From: Sandaracinus amylolyticus | GTDB taxonomy: Bacteria; Myxococcota_A; Polyangia; Polyangiales; Sandaracinaceae | NCBI RefSeq assembly: GCF_000737325.1 | Contig: NZ_CP011125.1 | Location: 5,766,001 to 5,830,000, forward strand | Length of the DNA: 64,000 nucleotides | Direction: 5' to 3' | Part shown: positions 12,294 through 41,065 of the stretch, piece after piece | Layout: every line of letters begins with the position of its first letter | Numbering within the stretch: the stretch's first letter is position 1 | The notes under the pieces: model-generated | Database searches by the model: none | What the model saw: only the letters and a program-made list of their open reading frames with translations | What the model was told of the DNA's origin: nothing | Made by a program: the position numbers and the translations under genes

Positions 12294-13892
12294 TCAGTCG
12301 GTGGCGGCCGAGCCCGCTCCGATCGGCGCGGTCTCGAGGAACTTCCACTGCTCGTTGTCGCGCTGCATGCGCAGCAGCTCCCACTCGTCGCGGAGCAGCG
12401 CGACGGGCTTGCCGTCGATGTCGGTCACCGCGAGCGGGATGCGGCGCGCTTCGAGCTCCTTCGTGTCCTTCGCGCCGTCGACCCAGCGCGCGAACGAGTA
12501 CGGCAGGCGATCGAGCGTCACCTTCGCGCCGTACTCGTGCTGGAGCCGGTACGCGAGCACCTCGAACTGCAGCACGCCGACCACGCCGAGGATCGGATCC
12601 TTCTCGCGCCCGGGCTGGAAGAAGAGCTGCAGCGTGCCTTCCTCCGCGAGCTCGTCGATGCCCTTCTGCATCTGCTTGCGCTTGAGCGGATCGAGCAGCG
12701 TCGCGCGCGCGAAGAACTCCGGCGAGAAGCGCGGCACCGCGTCGATCGCGACCGGAGGCGAGCCGGTCGAGAGCGTGTCGCCGATGCGGAAGATCCCGGG
12801 GTCGTGAAGGCCGACGACGTCGCCGGCCCACGCCTCGTGCACGGTCTGGCGCTCCTGCGCGAAGAGCTGCTCGGCGCGCGCGAGCCGGATCTGCTTTCCG
12901 AGCCGGTAGTGGTTGACCCACATGCCGCTCTCGAACTTGCCCGAGACGATGCGCACGAACGCGATCCGATCGCGATGGTTCGGGTCCATGTTCGCCTGGA
13001 CCTTGAAGACGAACGCCGCGAAGCGATCCTCGCCGGGCTCGACCTTCCCCACGTTCGTCACGCGCGCGCCGGGCTGCGGGCAGATGTCCTGGAACGCCTC
13101 GAGGAACGGCTCGACGCCGAAGTTCGTGAGCGCGCTGCCGAAGAACACCGGCGAGATCTCGCCCTTCAGGAAGCGCTCCTGATCGAACGAGTCGCCCGCG
13201 CCGGTGACGAGCTCGACCTCGTCGCGGAAGTTCTTCGCGAGCTGCTCGCCCACGAGCTGATCGATCTTCGGATCGTCGATGCCGCTCGTCTGCATCGGCA
13301 CGCGCGACGCGTTCTTCGCGGTGCGATCGAACGTGAGCACACCCTTGCTGTCGACGTCGTAGACGCCCTTGAAGTCCTCGCCCGAGCCGATCGGCCAGGT
13401 GCGCGGCACGGTGCGCATGCCGAGCACTTCCTCGATCTCGCTCATCAGCGCGAAGGGATCGCGCGCCGGGCGATCGAGCTTGTTCACGAACGTGACGATG
13501 GGCGTGCCGCGCTGGCGGCACACGTGGAAGAGCTTCTTCGTCTGCTCCTCGACGCCCTTCGCCGCGTCGATGAGCATGATCGCGCAGTCGGCCGCGGTCA
13601 GCGTGCGGTACGTGTCCTCGCTGAAGTCCTGGTGGCCCGGCGTGTCGAGCAGGTTGTAGCGGATGCCGCCGTACTCGAACTGCAGCACCGAGCTGGTGAT
13701 CGAGATGCCGCGCTTGCGCTCGAGCTCCATCCAGTCGGACGTCGCGGCGCGCTGCGCCTTGCGCGCGTGGACCGCGCCCGCGGTGTGGATCGCGCCTCCG
13801 TAGAGCAGCAGCTTCTCGGTGAGCGTGGTCTTGCCCGCGTCGGGGTGGGCGATGATGGCGAACGTGCGTCGCCGCTCGAACTCGTGGGGCAT
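12294..13892 (-). CDS. prfC: Peptide chain release factor 3
   Basis: The 532-residue GTPase matches RF3, which recycles RF1/RF2 from the ribosome after termination. It shows G1 AHPDAGKT, switch motif GISITSS, G3 DTPGHQDF and G4 NKLD. The later domains include 'MWVNHYRLGKQIRL' and 'QFEVLAYRLQHEYG', and the length is normal for the family. It is preceded on the same strand by a hypothetical gene (67-base gap) and followed by the pseudokinase. The divergent rbfA-like/rtcB-like pair lies about 1 kb away, which gathers several ribosome-related functions in one neighbourhood. Confidence 0.95.
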   Translation of the reverse strand: MPHEFERRRTFAIIAHPDAGKTTLTEKLLLYGGAIHTAGAVHARKAQRAATSDWMELERKRGISITSSVLQFEYGGIRYNLLDTPGHQDFSEDTYRTLTAADCAIMLIDAAKGVEEQTKKLFHVCRQRGTPIVTFVNKLDRPARDPFALMSEIEEVLGMRTVPRTWPIGSGEDFKGVYDVDSKGVLTFDRTAKNASRVPMQTSGIDDPKIDQLVGEQLAKNFRDEVELVTGAGDSFDQERFLKGEISPVFFGSALTNFGVEPFLEAFQDICPQPGARVTNVGKVEPGEDRFAAFVFKVQANMDPNHRDRIAFVRIVSGKFESGMWVNHYRLGKQIRLARAEQLFAQERQTVHEAWAGDVVGLHDPGIFRIGDTLSTGSPPVAIDAVPRFSPEFFARATLLDPLKRKQMQKGIDELAEEGTLQLFFQPGREKDPILGVVGVLQFEVLAYRLQHEYGAKVTLDRLPYSFARWVDGAKDTKELEARRIPLAVTDIDGKPVALLRDEWELLRMQRDNEQWKFLETAPIGAGSAATD

Positions 13893-19374: not shown

Positions 19375-19800
19375 TCTACGACGACGACCACGTCGGACGA
19401 CCACGACCACGACCACGACCACGTCGGACGACCACGACCACGACCACGTCCACGTCCACGTCCACGATCGTGTCGAGGACACGACATGGGTGACAGGTCG
19501 CGCGCTGCGTGGGCGTCGAGGACACGACATGGGTGACAGGTCGTCTGCTGCGTGGGCGTCGAGGACACGACATGGGTGATGGGTCACGCGCTGCGTCGTC
19601 GTGGTCGTGGTCGGCCGCGGCTTCGGGGCCGAGGAAAACGGCCGCTCACGACCACGTTCACGTCCACGACCACGCGCCTGCCGAGGACAGGACAGGGGTG
19701 ACAGGTGGCCCGCCGCGTGGCCGTCCCGACAGGACATGGGTGACAGGCGACCGCCCCACGTGGTCGTGGTCTTGGTCGTCGTCGTGGTCGGTCGTTTTCT
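19375..19800. repeat. GACCAC-type microsatellites with 43-bp tandem repeat
   Basis: The 589-base gap 19276-19864 is mostly repetitive. Stretches of CGACCA/CGTCCA (19380-19470) and their complement (19597-19612, 19759-19795) flank five copies of a unit with the core GACATGGGTGACAGG. Copies 1-3 start at 19472, 19515 and 19558 with an exact 43-bp period. Copy 4 (19681, GACAGGGGTGACAGG) and copy 5 (19728) diverge. A smaller GTGGTC stretch recurs at 21458-21496 on the other side of the next gene. No ORF here looks coding, although several frames stay open because of the periodicity. Confidence 0.85.
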
Positions 19801-33158: not shown

Positions 33159-33294
33159 GGCCGGGAGTCGACGGGGGGCGGAGCCCCCCGGGGAAGTCAG
33201 AAGAGGCCGGGGGTCGACAGGGGGGCGGAGCCCCCCGGGATCAGGAGCGGCCGGGGGTCGACAGGGGGGCGGAGCCCCCCGGGGAATCAGAACA
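33159..33294. repeat. Three tandem hairpin units derived from the ybaB 3' end
   Basis: Three imperfect 44-47 bp units contain the identical hairpin GGGGGGC-GGA-GCCCCCC at 33173-33189, 33220-33236 and 33264-33280. Each is followed or preceded by TCAG[AG]A...GGCCGGGG, which on the minus strand decodes as the ybaB tail 'PGLF-stop' (or PGRS-stop), so the units look like duplications of the ybaB terminus plus a hairpin. The third unit overlaps the real ybaB stop at 33287. They lie inside the ybaB-recR gap of the operon (226 bases). Confidence 0.75.
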
Positions 33295-33613
33295 GGCCGG
33301 GGATCTTCAGGCCGCCGGTGACCTTCTCGAGCTCGGCGTCGACGACCTCGTTCGCCTTCTTCATGCCGGCGTTCACCGCCGCGACGACGAGGTCCTGGAC
33401 CATCGAGAGGTCCTCGCCCTTGAGGAGCTCGGGCGCGATCTCGATCGAGACGAGCTCCTTCGCGCCGTTGACCTTCACCTTGACCTGGTCGTTGCCGGCG
33501 CCGGCCTCGACGACCTCGCTCTGGAGCTCCTGCTTGCGCTTCTCGATCTTGCGCTGCAGGCGGCTGGCCTGGCGCATCAGCTCGCTCATGCCGCCGCGGA
33601 AATGCGTGCTCAT
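33287..33613 (-). CDS. ybaB: YbaB/EbfC nucleoid-associated protein
   Basis: The 108-residue protein matches the YbaB/EbfC family of small DNA-binding dimers. It shows the helical 'MRQASRLQRKIEKRKQEL', the beta core 'VKVKVNGAKELVSIEIAPELL', and the family pattern 'MVQDLVVAAVNAGMKKANEV', ending with the conserved 'GLKIPGLF'. It sits 69 bases after the dnaX stop and upstream of recR, the usual dnaX-ybaB-recR arrangement. Its function is nucleoid organisation and possibly recombination support. Confidence 0.95.
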   Translation of the reverse strand: MSTHFRGGMSELMRQASRLQRKIEKRKQELQSEVVEAGAGNDQVKVKVNGAKELVSIEIAPELLKGEDLSMVQDLVVAAVNAGMKKANEVVDAELEKVTGGLKIPGLF

Positions 33614-33682: not shown

Positions 33683-36244
33683 TCAATCGCCCTCGAGGCG
33701 CACCTCGGCGGCCTCGGGGCGCGCTTCGAACACAGAGAGCGCCTCGACGACCATCGGGTGGTTCAGCGCCTTCTTCTTCGTCGCTTCCCAGCGCGCGCGC
33801 TGACGCTCGGCCTCGAGCTCGGCGATGGTCTGGCCGCCGGGGTCGTTGCCCGCGCGCTCGATGACGGTCACGGAGGGGCGCGCGCCGAGGACGCGCTCGG
33901 CGATCTCGGCGATCGCGGCTCGGGCGTCGGGGGCGTCGGCCTGGCGCCGATAGAACGAGCCGGCGGGGAACGCGATCACGATCTCGTCGCGGCCGACCCG
34001 CGACGGCGACGCGTGGAGGAGCACCGAGCCGAGCGCAGGGCGCGTCTCCATGAGGACGGCGACGACGGTCTCCCAGCGGGTGGTCGCGTCGGGGTCGGCG
34101 GGGCGGGCGGGGGCACGGGCGGGGGCGACGGCGGGAGCGACGGCGGGTGCGACGGCGACGGCGGGTGCGACGGCGACGGCGGGTGCGACGGCGACGGCGG
34201 GTGCGGGCGCGAACGCCGCCGCAGGGGCGAACGCGGGCGCCGCCGGAGCGGGCGCGGGGCGGGACGCGGGCGCAGGGCGCGTCGCGGAGAGGGCCTGGAA
34301 CAGCGCGTCGACCGAGGCGAGCGCCGGATCGACCGGCGCCGCCGAACGCGGAGACGGCGCAGGGTGTGCCGAAGTGGGGCCAGGACGAGCCACTTCGGGT
34401 CGGAGATCGGTCGCTACCGGTCCGACGGGGCTCCTCACCGGTCCGACGGGGCTGCCTACCGGTCCGACGACACTGCCTACCGGTCCAACTGCGCTGCCTA
34501 CCGGTCCGACTTCGCTCGCGACCGGTCCAACCGGGCCGCCTACCGGTCCGACGACGCTGCCTACCGGTCCGACAGCGCTCGCTACCGGTCCGACAGCGCT
34601 CGCTACCGGTCCGACAGCGCTCGCTACCGGTCCGACAGCGCTCGCTACCGGTCCGACAGCGCTCGCTACCGGTCCGACAGCGCTCGCTACCGGTCCTACA
34701 GCGCTCGCTACCGGTCCTACAGCGCTCGCTACCGGTCCGACAGCGCTCGCTACCGGTCCGACCGCGTTCACTCCGACGCTGGCGCGGGTCGGCTCGGGCG
34801 CCGCCGCTGCGCGCGCGTCGCCCTCGTCCTCCGCGCGCAGCCCACCCGACGACGATGCGCTCGCCGCAGGGGCAGGTTCTTCTTCCGCGTCGTCGGCCGC
34901 GGGCATCACCGCGCGGCGCTCCGCCGTCTCGATGCGCGCGCCCGGGCCACGCAGCCGCTCGATCAGCGCGCTCGCGTCGTCGGGCGCGGCCGTCGCGCGC
35001 GGCGTGCGCGTCCCACCGCCGCCGCCACCACGACCGCCGCCGCCTCCGCCGCGCGGACCGGTCGGCGCCGGGCCCGCCGGGCGCCCCGACTGCAGCGCGT
35101 CGAGCCGCGCAACGATCTCCGCGATCGCGCGCAGCGGCGGGCGCGTCGCGAGGCGCACCAGGCCCATCTCGAGCGTCAGGCGCGGCATCGACGCCTTCGC
35201 GATCTCGTCGACGAGCAGCGAGAGCGACGCGAACGCGCGCTGCATCTCGAGCTCCTCGACGCGCTCCACGAGGTCGAGCGCCTTGCGCCGCTCTTCCTCG
35301 ACGAGCGCGACCAGCTCGGTGCCCGGCCCCGCGACCTTCAGCACCACGAGGTCGCGCATCAGCTCGGTGAGCGCCTTCGAGAAGTGCAGCATGTCGAGGC
35401 CGCGCGTCGCGAGCGCGTCGACCACGCCGAGCGCGCCCGCGCCGTCGCCCTCGAGCACCGCCGCCGACGCGCGATGCAGCAGATCGCGATCCGCGATGCC
35501 GAGCACGCGCGCGACCTCTTCGCCCACCAGCGTCGTGCCCGCGAACGCGACGATCTGATCGAGCAAGGTCAGCGCGTCGCGCATCGAGCCCGCGGCCTCG
35601 CGCGCCACGATCGCGACCGCCGCGTCGTCCGCCTGGATGCCCTCGCGCCCGAGGATGTCGCGCACCCGCGACGCGACGACGCTCTGCGGGATCAGGCGGA
35701 AGTCGTAGCGCTGGCAGCGCGAGCGGATCGTGATCGGGACCTTGTGCGACTCCGTCGTCGCGAAGATGAACTTCACGTGCGGCGGCGGCTCCTCCAGCGT
35801 CTTGAGGAACGCGTTGAACGCGCCCGTCGAGAGCATGTGGACCTCGTCGACGATCACGATCTTGAAGCGGTCGCGCGCAGGACGGAACGGGATCGTCTCC
35901 TGCAGCCGGCGCACGTCCTCGACGCTGTTGTTCGAGGCGCCGTCGATCTCGAGCACGTCGAGGTCGACGCCGGTCGTGATCTCGCGGCACGGATCGCAGA
36001 CGCCGCAGGGCTCGCTCGTGGGCCCGCGCGTGCCGCTGCCGTCGGGGCCCGCGCAGTTGAGCGCCTTCGCGAGGATGCGCGCGGTGGTCGTCTTGCCCAC
36101 GCCGCGCACGCCGGTGAACAGGAACGCGTGCGCGACGCGGCCCGAGGCGATCGCGTTCCCGAGCGTGCGCGTGACGTGCTCCTGGCCGACGAGGTCGGAG
36201 AACGTCTGCGGTCGATACTTCCGCGCGAGGACCGTGTACGCCAT
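33683..36244 (-). CDS. dnaX: DNA polymerase III subunits gamma/tau with heptad-repeat linker
   Basis: The 853-residue clamp-loader ATPase has Walker [10 protein letters not shown] near residue 45, zinc cysteines ([11 protein letters not shown]) and Walker [10 protein letters not shown]. Sensor 1 FIFATTE and the AAA+ lid follow. Beyond ~residue 380 the protein becomes low-complexity. A Gly/Arg-rich stretch is followed by seventeen heptads of the form S-A-V-G-P-V-A (about residues 490-610), then a second Ala/Pro/Val tract ('[11 protein letters not shown]'). The C-terminal tau-like domain (~710-853) holds '[20 protein letters not shown]'. No A-AAA-AAG slippery site is apparent, so the short gamma form may not be made by frameshifting. 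It heads the operon with ybaB, recR and sctV. Confidence 0.94.
34416..34772. repeat. 17 x 21-bp minisatellite inside dnaX
   Basis: Seventeen tandem units of ACCGGTCCGACAGCGCTCGCT type run with exact 21-bp period. Units 8-13 (34563-34688) are identical to each other; units 14-15 differ by one base, and the outermost units diverge more. All units keep the dnaX frame and encode S-A-V-G-P-V-A heptads, so unit number can change without frameshift. A second shorter repeat (GCGACGGCGGGT type) is at ~34130-34205. Confidence 0.95.
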
Positions 36245-36305
36245 GAGCGCGCGAAGATAGCAAATCCCCGCGCGAGGGGATCTCGACCGCGTGCTATCGC
36301 ACGGC

Positions 36306-37124
36306 GTGGCTCTCGCTCACGACATCGTGCGCGCGCCGGATGGCACGCCGACGCGCAGCCTCTTGCTCCTGCACGGCATCCTCGGCAGCGGCGCGAACCT
36401 GCGCACCATCGCGCGGCGCTTCGTGCAGGCACGTCCCGACTGGGCCGCGGTGCTCGTCGATCTGCGGCGTCACGGCGCGTCGCTCGAGGCGTCCGGGCCC
36501 GACACGCTCGCGCAGGCCGCGGAGGACGTCGCGTCGCTCGCGCGCTCGCTCGAGGCGCCGGCGCGCGCGGTGCTCGCGCACAGCTTCGGCGGGAAGGTCG
36601 CGCTGCAGTGGCTCGCGACGGAGCGCGCCGGGCTCGAGCACGCGTTCGTCGTCGACAGCACGCCGGGCGCGCGCGTGGATGCGCGTGGCTCGGAGAGCAC
36701 GGTGCGCGTGGTCGAGATGCTCGACGCGCTGCCCTACCCGTTCGCGTCGCGCGAGGCGTTCGTGAAGGCCGTGCAGGAGCAGGACCCGAGGCCCGCTATC
36801 GCGCCCTGGCTCGCGATGAGCCTGCGCCGCGGCGACGACGGCTTCCGGTTCGGGCCGCCGATCCCGTCGATCCGCGCGCTGCTCGCGTCGTACTTCGCGT
36901 CGGACCTGTGGGGCGTCGTCGAGGCGCCGCCCGAGGGCACGTCGCTGCACTTCGTGATCGGCGAGCGCTCGGGTGTGCTCGACGAGGCGGATCGCGCGCG
37001 TCTCGACGCGCTCGCGTCGCGCCAGCCGGGGCGCGTCACCGTCGATCGCCTGCCCACCGATCATTGGGTGCACGCCGAGGATCCCGAGGGCCTCGTGCGC
37101 GTGATGCTCGCGCGGATGGGCTGA
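36306..37124 (+). CDS. Alpha/beta-fold hydrolase
   Basis: From GTG 36306 the protein has 272 residues (GTG 36291 is an alternative). The fold markers are 'LLLLHGILGSGANLRTIARRF' (oxyanion loop HG), the nucleophile elbow AHSFGGKV with Ser, and a C-terminal 'DHWVHAEDPEGLV' with the catalytic His. The acid is likely the Asp in 'VVDSTPGARVDARG' or a later one. It resembles the YbfF/epoxide-hydrolase-like esterase subgroup; substrate unknown. It starts about 60 bases from the divergent dnaX and its stop is one base from the stop of the convergent GGDEF gene. Confidence 0.88.
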   Translation: MALAHDIVRAPDGTPTRSLLLLHGILGSGANLRTIARRFVQARPDWAAVLVDLRRHGASLEASGPDTLAQAAEDVASLARSLEAPARAVLAHSFGGKVALQWLATERAGLEHAFVVDSTPGARVDARGSESTVRVVEMLDALPYPFASREAFVKAVQEQDPRPAIAPWLAMSLRRGDDGFRFGPPIPSIRALLASYFASDLWGVVEAPPEGTSLHFVIGERSGVLDEADRARLDALASRQPGRVTVDRLPTDHWVHAEDPEGLVRVMLARMG

Positions 37125-38235: not shown

Positions 38236-38375
38236 GACGGCTTCGTGGCCCCCAGCGCCCGAGATCGTGACACAGAAGCGCGCGCGACGGGTGCCTCGAT
38301 CGACACCTGGCGGGTTGCGGCGATTCCCGCGCGGCACCAGTGCTGCGGCTCGCTGCAGACGGAGATGGAGCGACG

Positions 38376-39773
38376 ATGAGCGACACGCGGGCGGTGGTGG
38401 TGATCGGTGGGGGACCGGCGGCGGTGTCGGCCGCGGTGGAAGCGGCGCGACACGGCGCGGGCGTGACGCTGGTCGCGGAGGAAGCCATCGGTGGGCGCTC
38501 GACGCACGCCTCGCTCGTGCCCTCGAAGGTGCTGCTCCACCTCGTCGGCGAGCGGCGGGTGCGCAAGGTCTCGGGGCGCATCGACGCGGAGGACCTCGCG
38601 CACGTGATCGCGGAGATGGGGCGCGTCGCCGAGCACGAGGGCGCGCGGCTCTCGAAGCGGCTCGAGGACGCGGGCGTGGCGATCGTGCGCGGGCTCGCGC
38701 GCTTCGTCGCGCCCGATGCCATCGAGATCGCGCGCGAGGGCAAGGCGACGCGGCGCGAGCGCTTCGACGCGGCGGTGATCGCGACGGGGTCGGTGCCGTG
38801 GTTCCCGGCCGGGTTCTTCGGCGACGCTGCGGCGGCCGGCGGAGGGCGGCCCGACGGCGAGCGCGTCCTCGCGCCCCGGCACTTGCGCGCGCTGCGTGAT
38901 CTGCCGCGCACGATGATGGTGATCGGCGGCGGCGCGACGGGCGCCGAGGCGACCCACGCGTTCCGCGAGCTCGGCGTCGAGGTGACGTGGATCGTCGACG
39001 ACCTCGGCTTGTTGCCGGGGTTCGATCGCGAGCTCGCGGACTCGCTGGGCGACGTGCTGATGGAGCGCGGCGTGAAGATCGTGCACGGCAAGCGCGTGAC
39101 GAAGGTCGCGCGCAGCGGCGAGAGCGTGACGGCGACGCTCGACGGTGGTCGCACCTACTCGGCGGAGCGTGCGTTCGTCGCGGTGGGACGTCGCGCCGAC
39201 ACGGCGCGGCTCGGGCTCGATGCGATCGGCGTGGCGGTCGACGCGCGGAGCGGCGCGGTGGTGGTCGACGACGCGCTGCGGTCGACGAGCGTTCCGAGCG
39301 TGCTCGCGTGCGGCGACGCGGCGGGCGGCGCGTTCGTCGCGAGCAAGGCGCACGTCGAGGGATGGATCGCGGGACGTCGCGCGGCCGGGCTCGATGCGCC
39401 GCGCGTGGTCGCGAACGGCTGGGTCGAGACGGTGTACAGCGAGCCGGAGCTCGCGCTCGTGGGGCTCTCGCCGCAGCGCGCGCGGTTCGCGAAGCGCGAC
39501 GTCGACGTGCGCACGGTGTCGTTCGACGAGAGCGTGAAGGGCACGCTGCACGGCGTGGGCGTGGATCGGCACGCGCGCGGAATGCTGCGCGTGGTGTGCG
39601 ATCCCGAGACGCGCGTGGTGCTCGGGGCGAGCGCGATCGGACCGCACGCGGCGGAGGTGCTCGGTCCGATCGCGGTCGCGGTGCGGGCGAAGATGACGAT
39701 CGAAGAGCTCGGCGCGGCCGGAATGGCCGCGCCGACGTTCGGTGAGCTGGCAGGCGTGGGCGGGCGGAGCTGA
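38376..39773 (+). CDS. FAD/NAD(P)-dependent oxidoreductase lacking redox cysteines
   Basis: The 465-residue protein from ATG 38376 (GGAG ribosome binding site) has the layout of the pyridine-nucleotide-disulfide oxidoreductases. FAD motif VVIGGGPAAVSAAVEAAR is at 7-24, the NAD motif VIGGGATGAEATHAF at ~180, the second FAD motif 'VLACGDAAGG', and a C-terminal dimerisation domain. At the place of the usual CxxxxC the sequence is GGRSTHASLVPSK, so both cysteines are missing. The C-terminal H-x-H-P-T-x-x-E is reduced to MAAPTFGE. It is thus not a disulfide reductase; a transhydrogenase or quinone-type reaction is possible. A broken duplicate of its 3' end lies ~700 bases downstream. Confidence 0.88.
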   Translation: MSDTRAVVVIGGGPAAVSAAVEAARHGAGVTLVAEEAIGGRSTHASLVPSKVLLHLVGERRVRKVSGRIDAEDLAHVIAEMGRVAEHEGARLSKRLEDAGVAIVRGLARFVAPDAIEIAREGKATRRERFDAAVIATGSVPWFPAGFFGDAAAAGGGRPDGERVLAPRHLRALRDLPRTMMVIGGGATGAEATHAFRELGVEVTWIVDDLGLLPGFDRELADSLGDVLMERGVKIVHGKRVTKVARSGESVTATLDGGRTYSAERAFVAVGRRADTARLGLDAIGVAVDARSGAVVVDDALRSTSVPSVLACGDAAGGAFVASKAHVEGWIAGRRAAGLDAPRVVANGWVETVYSEPELALVGLSPQRARFAKRDVDVRTVSFDESVKGTLHGVGVDRHARGMLRVVCDPETRVVLGASAIGPHAAEVLGPIAVAVRAKMTIEELGAAGMAAPTFGELAGVGGRS

Positions 39774-39851
39774 CGCGGCCGAGCTCAGGGGCCGCCGGTG
39801 GCGGGAGCGCCTCGAGCTCATCATCGAACACGGGGCGCGATCTCGGCACGG

Positions 39852-40410
39852 GATGGGTCGGACCCATCGAGATCGAGTTTGGCGGCGGTCGCGATGGGTC
39901 GGACCTATCGAGATCGAGGTTGGCGGCGGTCGCGATGGGTCGGACCCATCGAGATCGAGTTTCGAGTCGATGAGGGATGGGTCCGACCCATCGAAATCGA
40001 GTTTCGCGTCGATGAGGGATGGGTCCGACCCATCGGGTGCCGAGTTTCGCGTCGATGAGGGATGGGTCCGACCCATCGAAATCGAGTTTCGAGTCGATGA
40101 GGGATGGGTCGGACCCATCGGGTGCGGAGCTGAAAGTCGACATGGGATGGGTCGGACCCATCGGTCGCCGACTTTCGAGTCGATGAGGGATGGGTCGGAC
40201 CCATCGAGATCGAGTTTGGCGGCGGTCGCGATGGGTCGGACCCATCGAGATCGAGGTTGGCGGCGGTCGGGATGGGTCGGACCCATCGAGATCGAGCTTC
40301 GAGTCGGTCGCGATGGGTCGGACCCATCGAGATCGAGCTTCGAGTCGGTCGGGATGGGTCGGACCCATCGAGATCGAGCTTCGAGTCGGTCGGGATGCGT
40401 CGGACCCGCT
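39852..40410. repeat. Array of 14 palindromes GATGGGTC-S-GACCCATC
   Basis: The 881-base stretch 39774-40654 has no gene. It contains fourteen 17-bp palindromes GATGGGTC-G/C-GACCCATC with starts at 39852, 39893, 39934, 39976, 40018, 40061, 40103, 40146, 40189, 40230, 40271, 40312, 40353 and 40394 (the last degenerate). The period is 41-43 bp, i.e. about four helical turns. Spacers fall into a few related types (GAGATCGAGTTTGGCGG.., GAAATCGAGTTTCG..GATGAG, GGGTGCCGAG..), so they are not unique as in CRISPR. The near 42-bp (14-codon) period keeps long frames open on both strands, which are not credible genes. Confidence 0.95.
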
Positions 40411-40458: not shown

Positions 40459-40653
40459 CGGCACGCGCGGCATGTTGGTGTGGTGTGCGATCCCGAGACG
40501 CTCGCGTGAGCGCGATCGGGCCGCACGCGGCGGAGGGGCTGGGGCCGATCGCGGTCGCGGTGCGCGCGGGGATCACGATCGAGGAGCTCGGCGCGACCGG
40601 GGTGGCCGCGCCGACGTTCGGGAGCTGGCAGGCGTGGGCGGGCCGAGCCGAAG
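40459..40653 (+). pseudogene. Duplicated, broken 3' end of the oxidoreductase gene
   Basis: This stretch matches about 200 bases of the oxidoreductase 3' end (39567-39770), e.g. GTGTGCGATCCCGAGACG, CCGCACGCGGCGGAG and GCCGCGCCGACGTTCGG. A ~10-base deletion after GAGACG and a single-base loss in GGTGAG to GGGAG break the frame. It cannot encode the domain and marks an old tandem duplication whose upstream part is replaced by the palindrome array. Confidence 0.85.
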
Positions 40654-40654
40654 C

Positions 40655-41065
40655 TCACTCGAGAGCGTCGAGCTCGGTCACCAGGTCCGCGGCGAAACGA
40701 TCCGGCTGCGCGACGATCACTCGCTGCTCGCCGGGAACCGGGAACACCGCGACGAATCGCTGGTCCCGAGTGAGGCCGGGTGTCCATCGCTCCAGCCACG
40801 CGTCGAGATCGATGCGGACGGCCTCACAGCCCGCCCACGCGTCGACCGCGCACGCGGCTGCGTAACGGGGGTGCGGCCAGACGGCGACGTACACGGCTCC
40901 ATCGGGCGCGTCACCGCTCACGTAGCCATCGTCCGAGCGCAGGCTCCACAGAGCAGCCTCGTCCGCGATGTGCTTGACCGCGTACGCGTAGCGGTCGTCG
41001 CGGTTCAGACGGAGCACCGACGCGATCTCGCGATCGCTCGGGTGCCACCCGGTCGAGCTCGCCAC
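40655..41065 (-). CDS. DUF2750-like protein
   Basis: The 136-residue soluble protein resembles DUF2750. The family pattern is visible as 'RYAYAVKHIADEAALWSLRSDDGYV', then 'VAVWPHPRYAAACAVDAWAG', then 'IDLDAWLERWTPGL' and a final 'FVAVFPVPGEQRVIVAQPDRFAADL'. No catalytic role is known for the family; several members occur near toxin-immunity or plasmid loci, but nothing here shows that. Its stop codon lies immediately beside the broken oxidoreductase fragment, so the duplication may have ended at this gene. Confidence 0.75.
   Translation of the reverse strand: MASSTGWHPSDREIASVLRLNRDDRYAYAVKHIADEAALWSLRSDDGYVSGDAPDGAVYVAVWPHPRYAAACAVDAWAGCEAVRIDLDAWLERWTPGLTRDQRFVAVFPVPGEQRVIVAQPDRFAADLVTELDALE

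Follow-up and report, generated by a model that had tools for sequence, protein, structure and literature searches.

Arrays of a 17-bp palindrome at unlinked loci of the Sandaracinus amylolyticus chromosome, with a layout close to that of plasmid sopC

Described palindrome arrays and the locus in the window

The familiar examples of arrays of sites for sequence-specific dimers are plasmid centromeres and the engineered lacO and tetO arrays. Chromosomal systems with dispersed palindromic sites and a dimeric reader include parS, Noc and matS, the last of which also has a 1-bp centre; these are single sites with known proteins, whereas the Sandaracinus arrays described here hold 8–18 copies. The nearest described layout is that of F plasmid sopC (parS_F), with twelve 43-bp repeats carrying 16-bp inverted repeats that are bound by SopB/ParB_F (PMC6238139). 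The short inverted repeat is bound by a dimer, and the sites lie within longer iterons (PMC6238139, PMC5016525; see also PMC7205306).

The window analysed is a stretch of 64,000 nucleotides (bases 5,766,001–5,830,000) from the single 10,327,335-bp chromosome contig of the soil myxobacterium S. amylolyticus. It holds a real array, array C, of the palindrome GATGGGTCSGACCCATC (P1; 17 bp in the format 8-1-8 with an S centre), which is present in twelve exact copies, one single-mismatch copy and a decayed 14th copy (Table 1). The fourteen palindromes with a 41–43-bp period reported in the earlier note are thus correct once the decayed last unit is counted. At a threshold of three mismatches, 13 sites were found at 39852–40369 against 0.47 expected in the whole window (shuffle maximum 3, n=100). 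The successive spacings of 41, 41, 42, 42, 43, 42, 43, 43, 41, 41, 41, 41 and 41 bp bear out the proposed geometry of about four helical turns per period, and the symmetric site does have the 1-base centre ascribed to it. That base is always S, mostly G but C in three successive units, and it flips inside the array while the spacers keep their orientation. The spacers recur and are mutually related; the earlier description of a few related spacer types was right and understated, since most of them contain a second, imperfect inverted repeat (P2, CGA..TCG; for example CGATTYYRAAATCG and GGATTCGAAATCC). P2 lies about half a period from each P1 and is the more variable of the two.

Table 1. P1 arrays of the S. 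amylolyticus chromosome (positions in Mb) and features of array C and its surroundings (positions in the window)
Feature	Position	Strand	Remarks
Array A	2.053 Mb (2.0526)		18 units including the decayed last
Array B	3.330 Mb (3.3301)		9 good units
Array C	5.806 Mb		in the window
Array D	8.148 Mb (8.1479)		11 units, opposite orientation
Reductase gene	38340..39773	+	upstream neighbour; pyridine nucleotide-disulphide oxidoreductase (flavoprotein disulphide reductase)
Reductase gene 3' end, left copy	39591..39776	+	left copy of direct duplication bracketing array C
Array C, whole	39849..40410	+	13 good units and 1 decayed, 41–43 bp each
P1 palindrome 1	39852..39868	.	exact, centre G
P1 palindrome 2	39893..39909	.	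one mismatch, GATGGGTCGGACCTATC
P1 palindrome 3	39934..39950	.	exact, centre G
P1 palindrome 4	39976..39992	.	exact, centre C
P1 palindrome 5	40018..40034	.	exact, centre C
P1 palindrome 6	40061..40077	.	exact, centre C
P1 palindrome 7	40103..40119	.	exact, centre G
P1 palindrome 8	40146..40162	.	exact, centre G
P1 palindrome 9	40189..40205	.	exact, centre G
P1 palindrome 10	40230..40246	.	exact, centre G
P1 palindrome 11	40271..40287	.	exact, centre G
P1 palindrome 12	40312..40328	.	exact, centre G
P1 palindrome 13	40353..40369	.	exact, centre G
P1 palindrome 14	40394..40410	.	decayed, 4 mismatches
Spacers	39869..40393	+	thirteen of 24–26 nt, most with imperfect second inverted repeat P2
Reductase gene 3' end, right copy	40480..40654	+	degenerate
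DUF2750 gene	40655..41065	-	downstream convergent neighbour

With about a dozen tandem repeats of approximately 43 bp, each carrying one short inverted repeat, array C comes close to the sopC layout, which was overlooked when the earlier note stated that it resembles no known parS. The Sandaracinus arrays differ from sopC in lying at four unlinked chromosomal loci, in their 1-bp centre and in the second inverted repeat of the spacer; moreover, no sopAB-like genes were found, canonical parS is located elsewhere and sibling families carry other palindromes. Array C sits between the disulphide-reductase gene and the convergent DUF2750 gene, and neither Cas nor par genes are among the neighbours identified (36291–37124, 38340–39773 and 40655–41065). 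The right copy of the reductase 3' end also lies beside the orthologous array of a second Sandaracinus genome, the duplication being present in both genomes of the genus.

On the S. amylolyticus chromosome, a clear ParB_N protein is encoded at 4.297 Mb, adjacent to a ParA gene, and a marginal ParB_N match occurs at 8.317 Mb. Neither adjoins an array, and no SopB-like gene was detected. Four canonical-type 16-bp parS sites (GTTTCACGTGAAAC) lie at 9.936 Mb (9.9358–9.9375), near dnaA at 9.822 Mb; the parA/parB genes at 4.297 Mb are more than 4.5 Mb from both. Chromosomal parS/ParB was rejected as an identity for P1, which is unrelated in sequence to GTTTCACGTGAAAC and far from its sites. A true partition centromere of plasmid or chromosome type, left over from sopC or parS and served by a ParA/ParB pair, is very improbable. 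Its layout, 43-bp repeats with 16-bp palindromes, is nearly matched (PMC6238139), but the genome offers only one clear ParB and one marginal match, has its parS elsewhere, and carries P1 arrays spread over the chromosome far from dnaA and parS. The earlier suggestion of a centromere-like or partition site thus stands as to layout and falls as to membership of a partition system, no ParA/ParB genes being linked; array C is sopC-like in geometry and fails on linked genes. An origin iteron, also suggested, is unlikely with dnaA and the canonical parS about 4 Mb from array C. Since GC skew in 26 sampled stretches was too noisy to place a switch, the origin position rests on dnaA and parS.

CRISPR arrays likewise have palindromic repeats at regular spacing, but the 17-bp P1 is below their usual repeat range, and in place of unique spacers between identical repeats array C has recurring, interrelated ones with a second inverted repeat.

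Confinement and conservation of P1

Random dispersal of the 17-mer, which the earlier note had named as fatal to its reading, is not what a genome-wide search found. P1 occurs with up to two mismatches at 54 places in the chromosome; the 50 of these that have no more than one mismatch are all located within four arrays lying megabases apart (Table 1). One of the four two-mismatch places is the last unit of array A. The 11-bp core GGGTCSGACCC is present in 49 copies; arrays account for 48, and the remaining one is inside a coding sequence. Order-4/5 Markov models of the genome's own composition predict about two copies outside arrays, and avoidance of the motif elsewhere was therefore dropped as an explanation: the lone outside copy is within the expected range, which denotes enrichment in arrays. 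Its position inside a coding sequence means that no classical autoregulatory operator is visible.

The exact 17-mer was found in just two of 96 related genomes, both Sandaracinus. A pattern scan of a wider contig collection, which may omit this genome or near ones, gave no match to P1, and none was obtained between the P1 array and phage records. IMG/VR yielded three 17-mer matches, each a single site, which we judged informally to be at chance level. Comparison of array C with Rfam produced only sub-threshold matches, none above the gathering threshold, and a search for literature on these arrays returned nothing.

REP, BIME and REPIN sequences, like these arrays, are intergenic palindromes with a mosaic of paired inverted repeats; one genome can hold several families of them, and the palindrome is conserved while the spacer varies. 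They typically occur as many dispersed single or paired copies, whereas P1 is never solitary, there are only nine arrays in two families, and the head-to-tail period is a strict 41–43 bp. REP elements with a RAYT were rejected since no Y1 transposase was found: PF01797 had no match in S. amylolyticus, as against matches in 5 of 14 control genomes.

The arrays were compared, as the earlier note had proposed for related strains, with the second Sandaracinus genome (10.75 Mb). Three of the four P1 arrays lie at syntenic places there, A corresponding to F, C to E and D to G, and most flanking blocks are 83–95% identical. A plasmid or phage relic, another of the earlier suggestions, is unlikely given this synteny and the lack of a match among phage records. 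Between the unlinked arrays A, B, C and D the P1 arms are 98–99% identical and the spacers 36–49%; within arrays, spacers are 47–61% identical. This contrast is the strongest single argument of the analysis. It requires that P1 be recognised in trans, because homogenisation within one array cannot hold it constant across four loci megabases apart.

The ordinary minisatellite, formed by neutral slippage and homogenisation inside each array, is quite improbable on the same ground. It would predict equal divergence of repeat and spacer between loci, and slippage, being confined to one array, offers no way of maintaining the same P1 in four unlinked arrays and across two species when the spacers of different arrays have diverged to 36–49% identity. 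On its side are the many unrelated non-coding minisatellites of 41–45 bp in S. amylolyticus, and array G, which has been homogenised to the broken palindrome CATGGGTCGGACCTATC. MIRU/VNTR loci resemble the arrays in being intergenic tandem repeats whose copy number varies between related genomes; they differ in that P1 is invariant across unlinked arrays and species and the period is helically quantised.

The reading that we tentatively prefer, while rating it somewhat below an even chance, is that the P1 arrays are dispersed docking arrays for dimers of a sequence-specific DNA-binding protein, which may insulate or silence loci or bridge them. Each 17-bp P1 would be a symmetric site for one dimer, and dimers 41–43 bp (about four turns) apart would sit on nearly the same helix face and could thereby form one cooperative nucleoprotein body per locus. 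Its probable use would be to insulate or silence locally where genes converge, or to join distant loci in a cluster like that of sopC or a lacO array. We infer both the role of such a body and that the reader is a dimeric protein on double-stranded DNA. In favour are the confinement of P1 to four arrays, its constancy beside drifting spacers, the three syntenic arrays, the sibling family and paired arm changes described below, the sopC precedent, and the centre, where G:C and C:G both occur, which suits a symmetric duplex site. Against are the state of array G, the single clear ParB, the lack of a visible autoregulatory operator, the absence of some arrays at syntenic places, the sharing of the period by unrelated repeats, the equally good fit of paired arm changes to a hairpin, and a search for a reader protein of P1 that found none. 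What appears new is the presence on a chromosome of dispersed, multi-family, sopC-like palindrome arrays, with a putative function. A bacterial chromosome with several unlinked arrays of at least two families and no recognised partner would point to an undescribed DNA-binding system, for which the 17-mer itself is a directly testable bait; as natural orthogonal arrays, they could in addition serve to tag loci.

Sibling families, paired arm changes and turnover of arrays

Sampling of the chromosome revealed an array with CGAATCTCGGAGATTCG, of the format 8-1-8 and with the TCSGA centre of P1. The sibling family, P1b, has the palindrome CGAATCTCSGAGATTCG, and its only common part with P1 is that centre. 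Five P1b arrays are found in S. amylolyticus (2.514, 3.262, 3.609, 4.172 and 8.906 Mb) and two in the second Sandaracinus, with periods of 40–43 bp; the 3.609-Mb array is syntenic with one at 3.870 Mb. In S. amylolyticus there are no P1b copies with up to one mismatch outside arrays. In the sampled stretch L076 a P1b array occupies 12374–12647. A further array of the second Sandaracinus (1.785 Mb) carries CATGGGTGGACCCATC and, like array G, is an exception to the constancy of P1; two other genomes of the family Sandaracinaceae hold looser relatives, GAAGGGTCGGACCCTTG.

The TCSGA core occurs in P1, P1b and the arrays of these two Sandaracinaceae. A universal TCSGA core was rejected, as it is missing from other hairpin arrays. 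A 43-bp array with the palindrome GCGCTCGGAGCGC and a TCGGA centre was seen in another deltaproteobacterial MAG (L245, 1–204). Stretches L066 (3860–4109) and L101 (11205–11473) share another family of 43-bp arrays, in which each unit has a pair of long hairpins (GGGGTAGAGCSGGCTCTACCCC and CGATCCGCA..TGCGGATCG).

In an alignment of 21 units TCGGA was invariant, two-sided changes were present in six of the eight arm pairs and 93.5% of cells were paired. Over the structure as a whole the two-sided cells numbered 49, compared with 22.8 after shuffling and no more than 11 in slid controls; the units were hand-picked, one or two per array, and the count accordingly illustrates pairing rather than proving it. 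The paired changes demonstrate that the symmetry is maintained, and they fit a duplex dimer site and a hairpin alike.

The hairpin raises the possibility of an RNA-level element. Transcription would run on from the upstream gene through the array, and the resulting row of hairpins would be a target for an RNA-binding protein or would shield or end the transcript. In favour, the fold of array C is much more stable than those of shuffled sequences (z = -12.8), arrays A and C both come after the stop codon of a gene upstream, and the paired changes preserve the hairpin. We nevertheless consider this improbable. Termination or protection requires stability, not one 17-nt sequence held constant at unlinked loci. 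In addition, a single array can switch its centre between G and C with no turn of the spacers, the loop of a P1 hairpin would be just 3 nt, and array G, which corresponds to D, is located immediately upstream of the start of a gene. No consistent rule links array orientation to genes or replichores.

Array size differs at syntenic loci, array A having 18 units and its counterpart F 8. At the syntenic places of array B and of the P1b arrays at 3.26 and 2.51 Mb the second Sandaracinus has no array, the 3.26-Mb locus being the cleanest empty site. Entire arrays are thus gained or lost, while others are retained, and essentiality of any one of them is not supported. No consistent target-site duplication was seen at the empty sites. 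Beside array E, stretch L030 (9730–9801) of the second Sandaracinus contains an inverted 72-bp piece, 85% like part of the neighbour gene of array F, which hints at exchange between array loci.

This turnover bears on the main rival of the docking array, a miniature mobile or self-amplifying hairpin satellite without host function, in which units would multiply and from time to time seed new loci by way of an enzyme recognising the P1 hairpin, and only units with intact P1 would propagate. REPINs are reportedly a precedent for miniature mobile palindrome elements. The varying copy number, the empty sites, the coexistence of several families of the same layout and the hint of inter-locus exchange all suit such an element. 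Set against them are the lack of a Y1/RAYT transposase in S. amylolyticus, of solitary copies, the usual trace of spreading elements, and of a consistent target-site duplication, together with the retention of several arrays at syntenic sites in both species. We regard the satellite as rather unlikely; an RNA role and neutral slippage are less likely than it.

The 41–45-bp period across the genome

The survey of repeat periods covered 1.28 Mb of the S. amylolyticus chromosome: 60 stretches picked by their position, the region around ParAB and the window, the last being counted although it was chosen for having an array. Among the 22 non-coding repeats that had 2.8 or more copies and a period of 25–65 bp, 19 fell at 41–45 bp; under stricter settings the proportion was 15 of 17, for which the binomial P relative to a uniform distribution is about 2e-12. 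Coding status was taken from a simple GC-frame caller, whose single assignments may be wrong. Smaller groups were present at 20–22 and 84–89 bp, and coding-region repeats had no 41–45-bp peak. Most arrays of this class have no sequence relation to one another, four similar pairs being found among 21 arrays, and about 15 non-coding families with this period are unrelated to those described above. Multi-copy repeats outside the family in the second Sandaracinus also have a 43-bp period (n=2), while other Polyangia have at most a weak version of the peak, mainly from one locus.

Self-reverse-complement symmetry was rejected as a property of the whole class: it reached p<0.05 in 6 of 19 arrays, about one third being significantly self-complementary and some two thirds without significant dyad symmetry. 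Array C is a conserved member of this wider group of 42-bp-period repeats. Because unrelated repeats share the period, it is by itself no evidence for a particular reader of array C, and it may stem from how repeats arise rather than from binding. The clustering at 41–45 bp constitutes a second, independent puzzle, concerning either bacterial minisatellite formation or what keeps helical register.

A broader form of the docking model, distinctly unlikely in our estimation, would place a multi-family set of arrays on a common 42-bp (four-turn) ruler. Each family, at least GATGGGTCSGACCCATC and CGAATCTCSGAGATTCG, would have its own factor and provide a separate address for clustering or insulating distant loci, giving a plasmid-centromere-like chromosome organisation of multiple specificities.

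The window contains two more non-coding arrays, at 19472–19596 and 33159–33302, with periods of 43 and 44 bp, the latter with a GGGGGGCGGAGCCCCCC hairpin. At 34411–34762, 21-bp repeats within dnaX encode a repeat of the Ser-Ala-Val-Gly-Pro-Val-Ala type, and the dnaX locus of the second Sandaracinus has its own 21-bp array of different extent.
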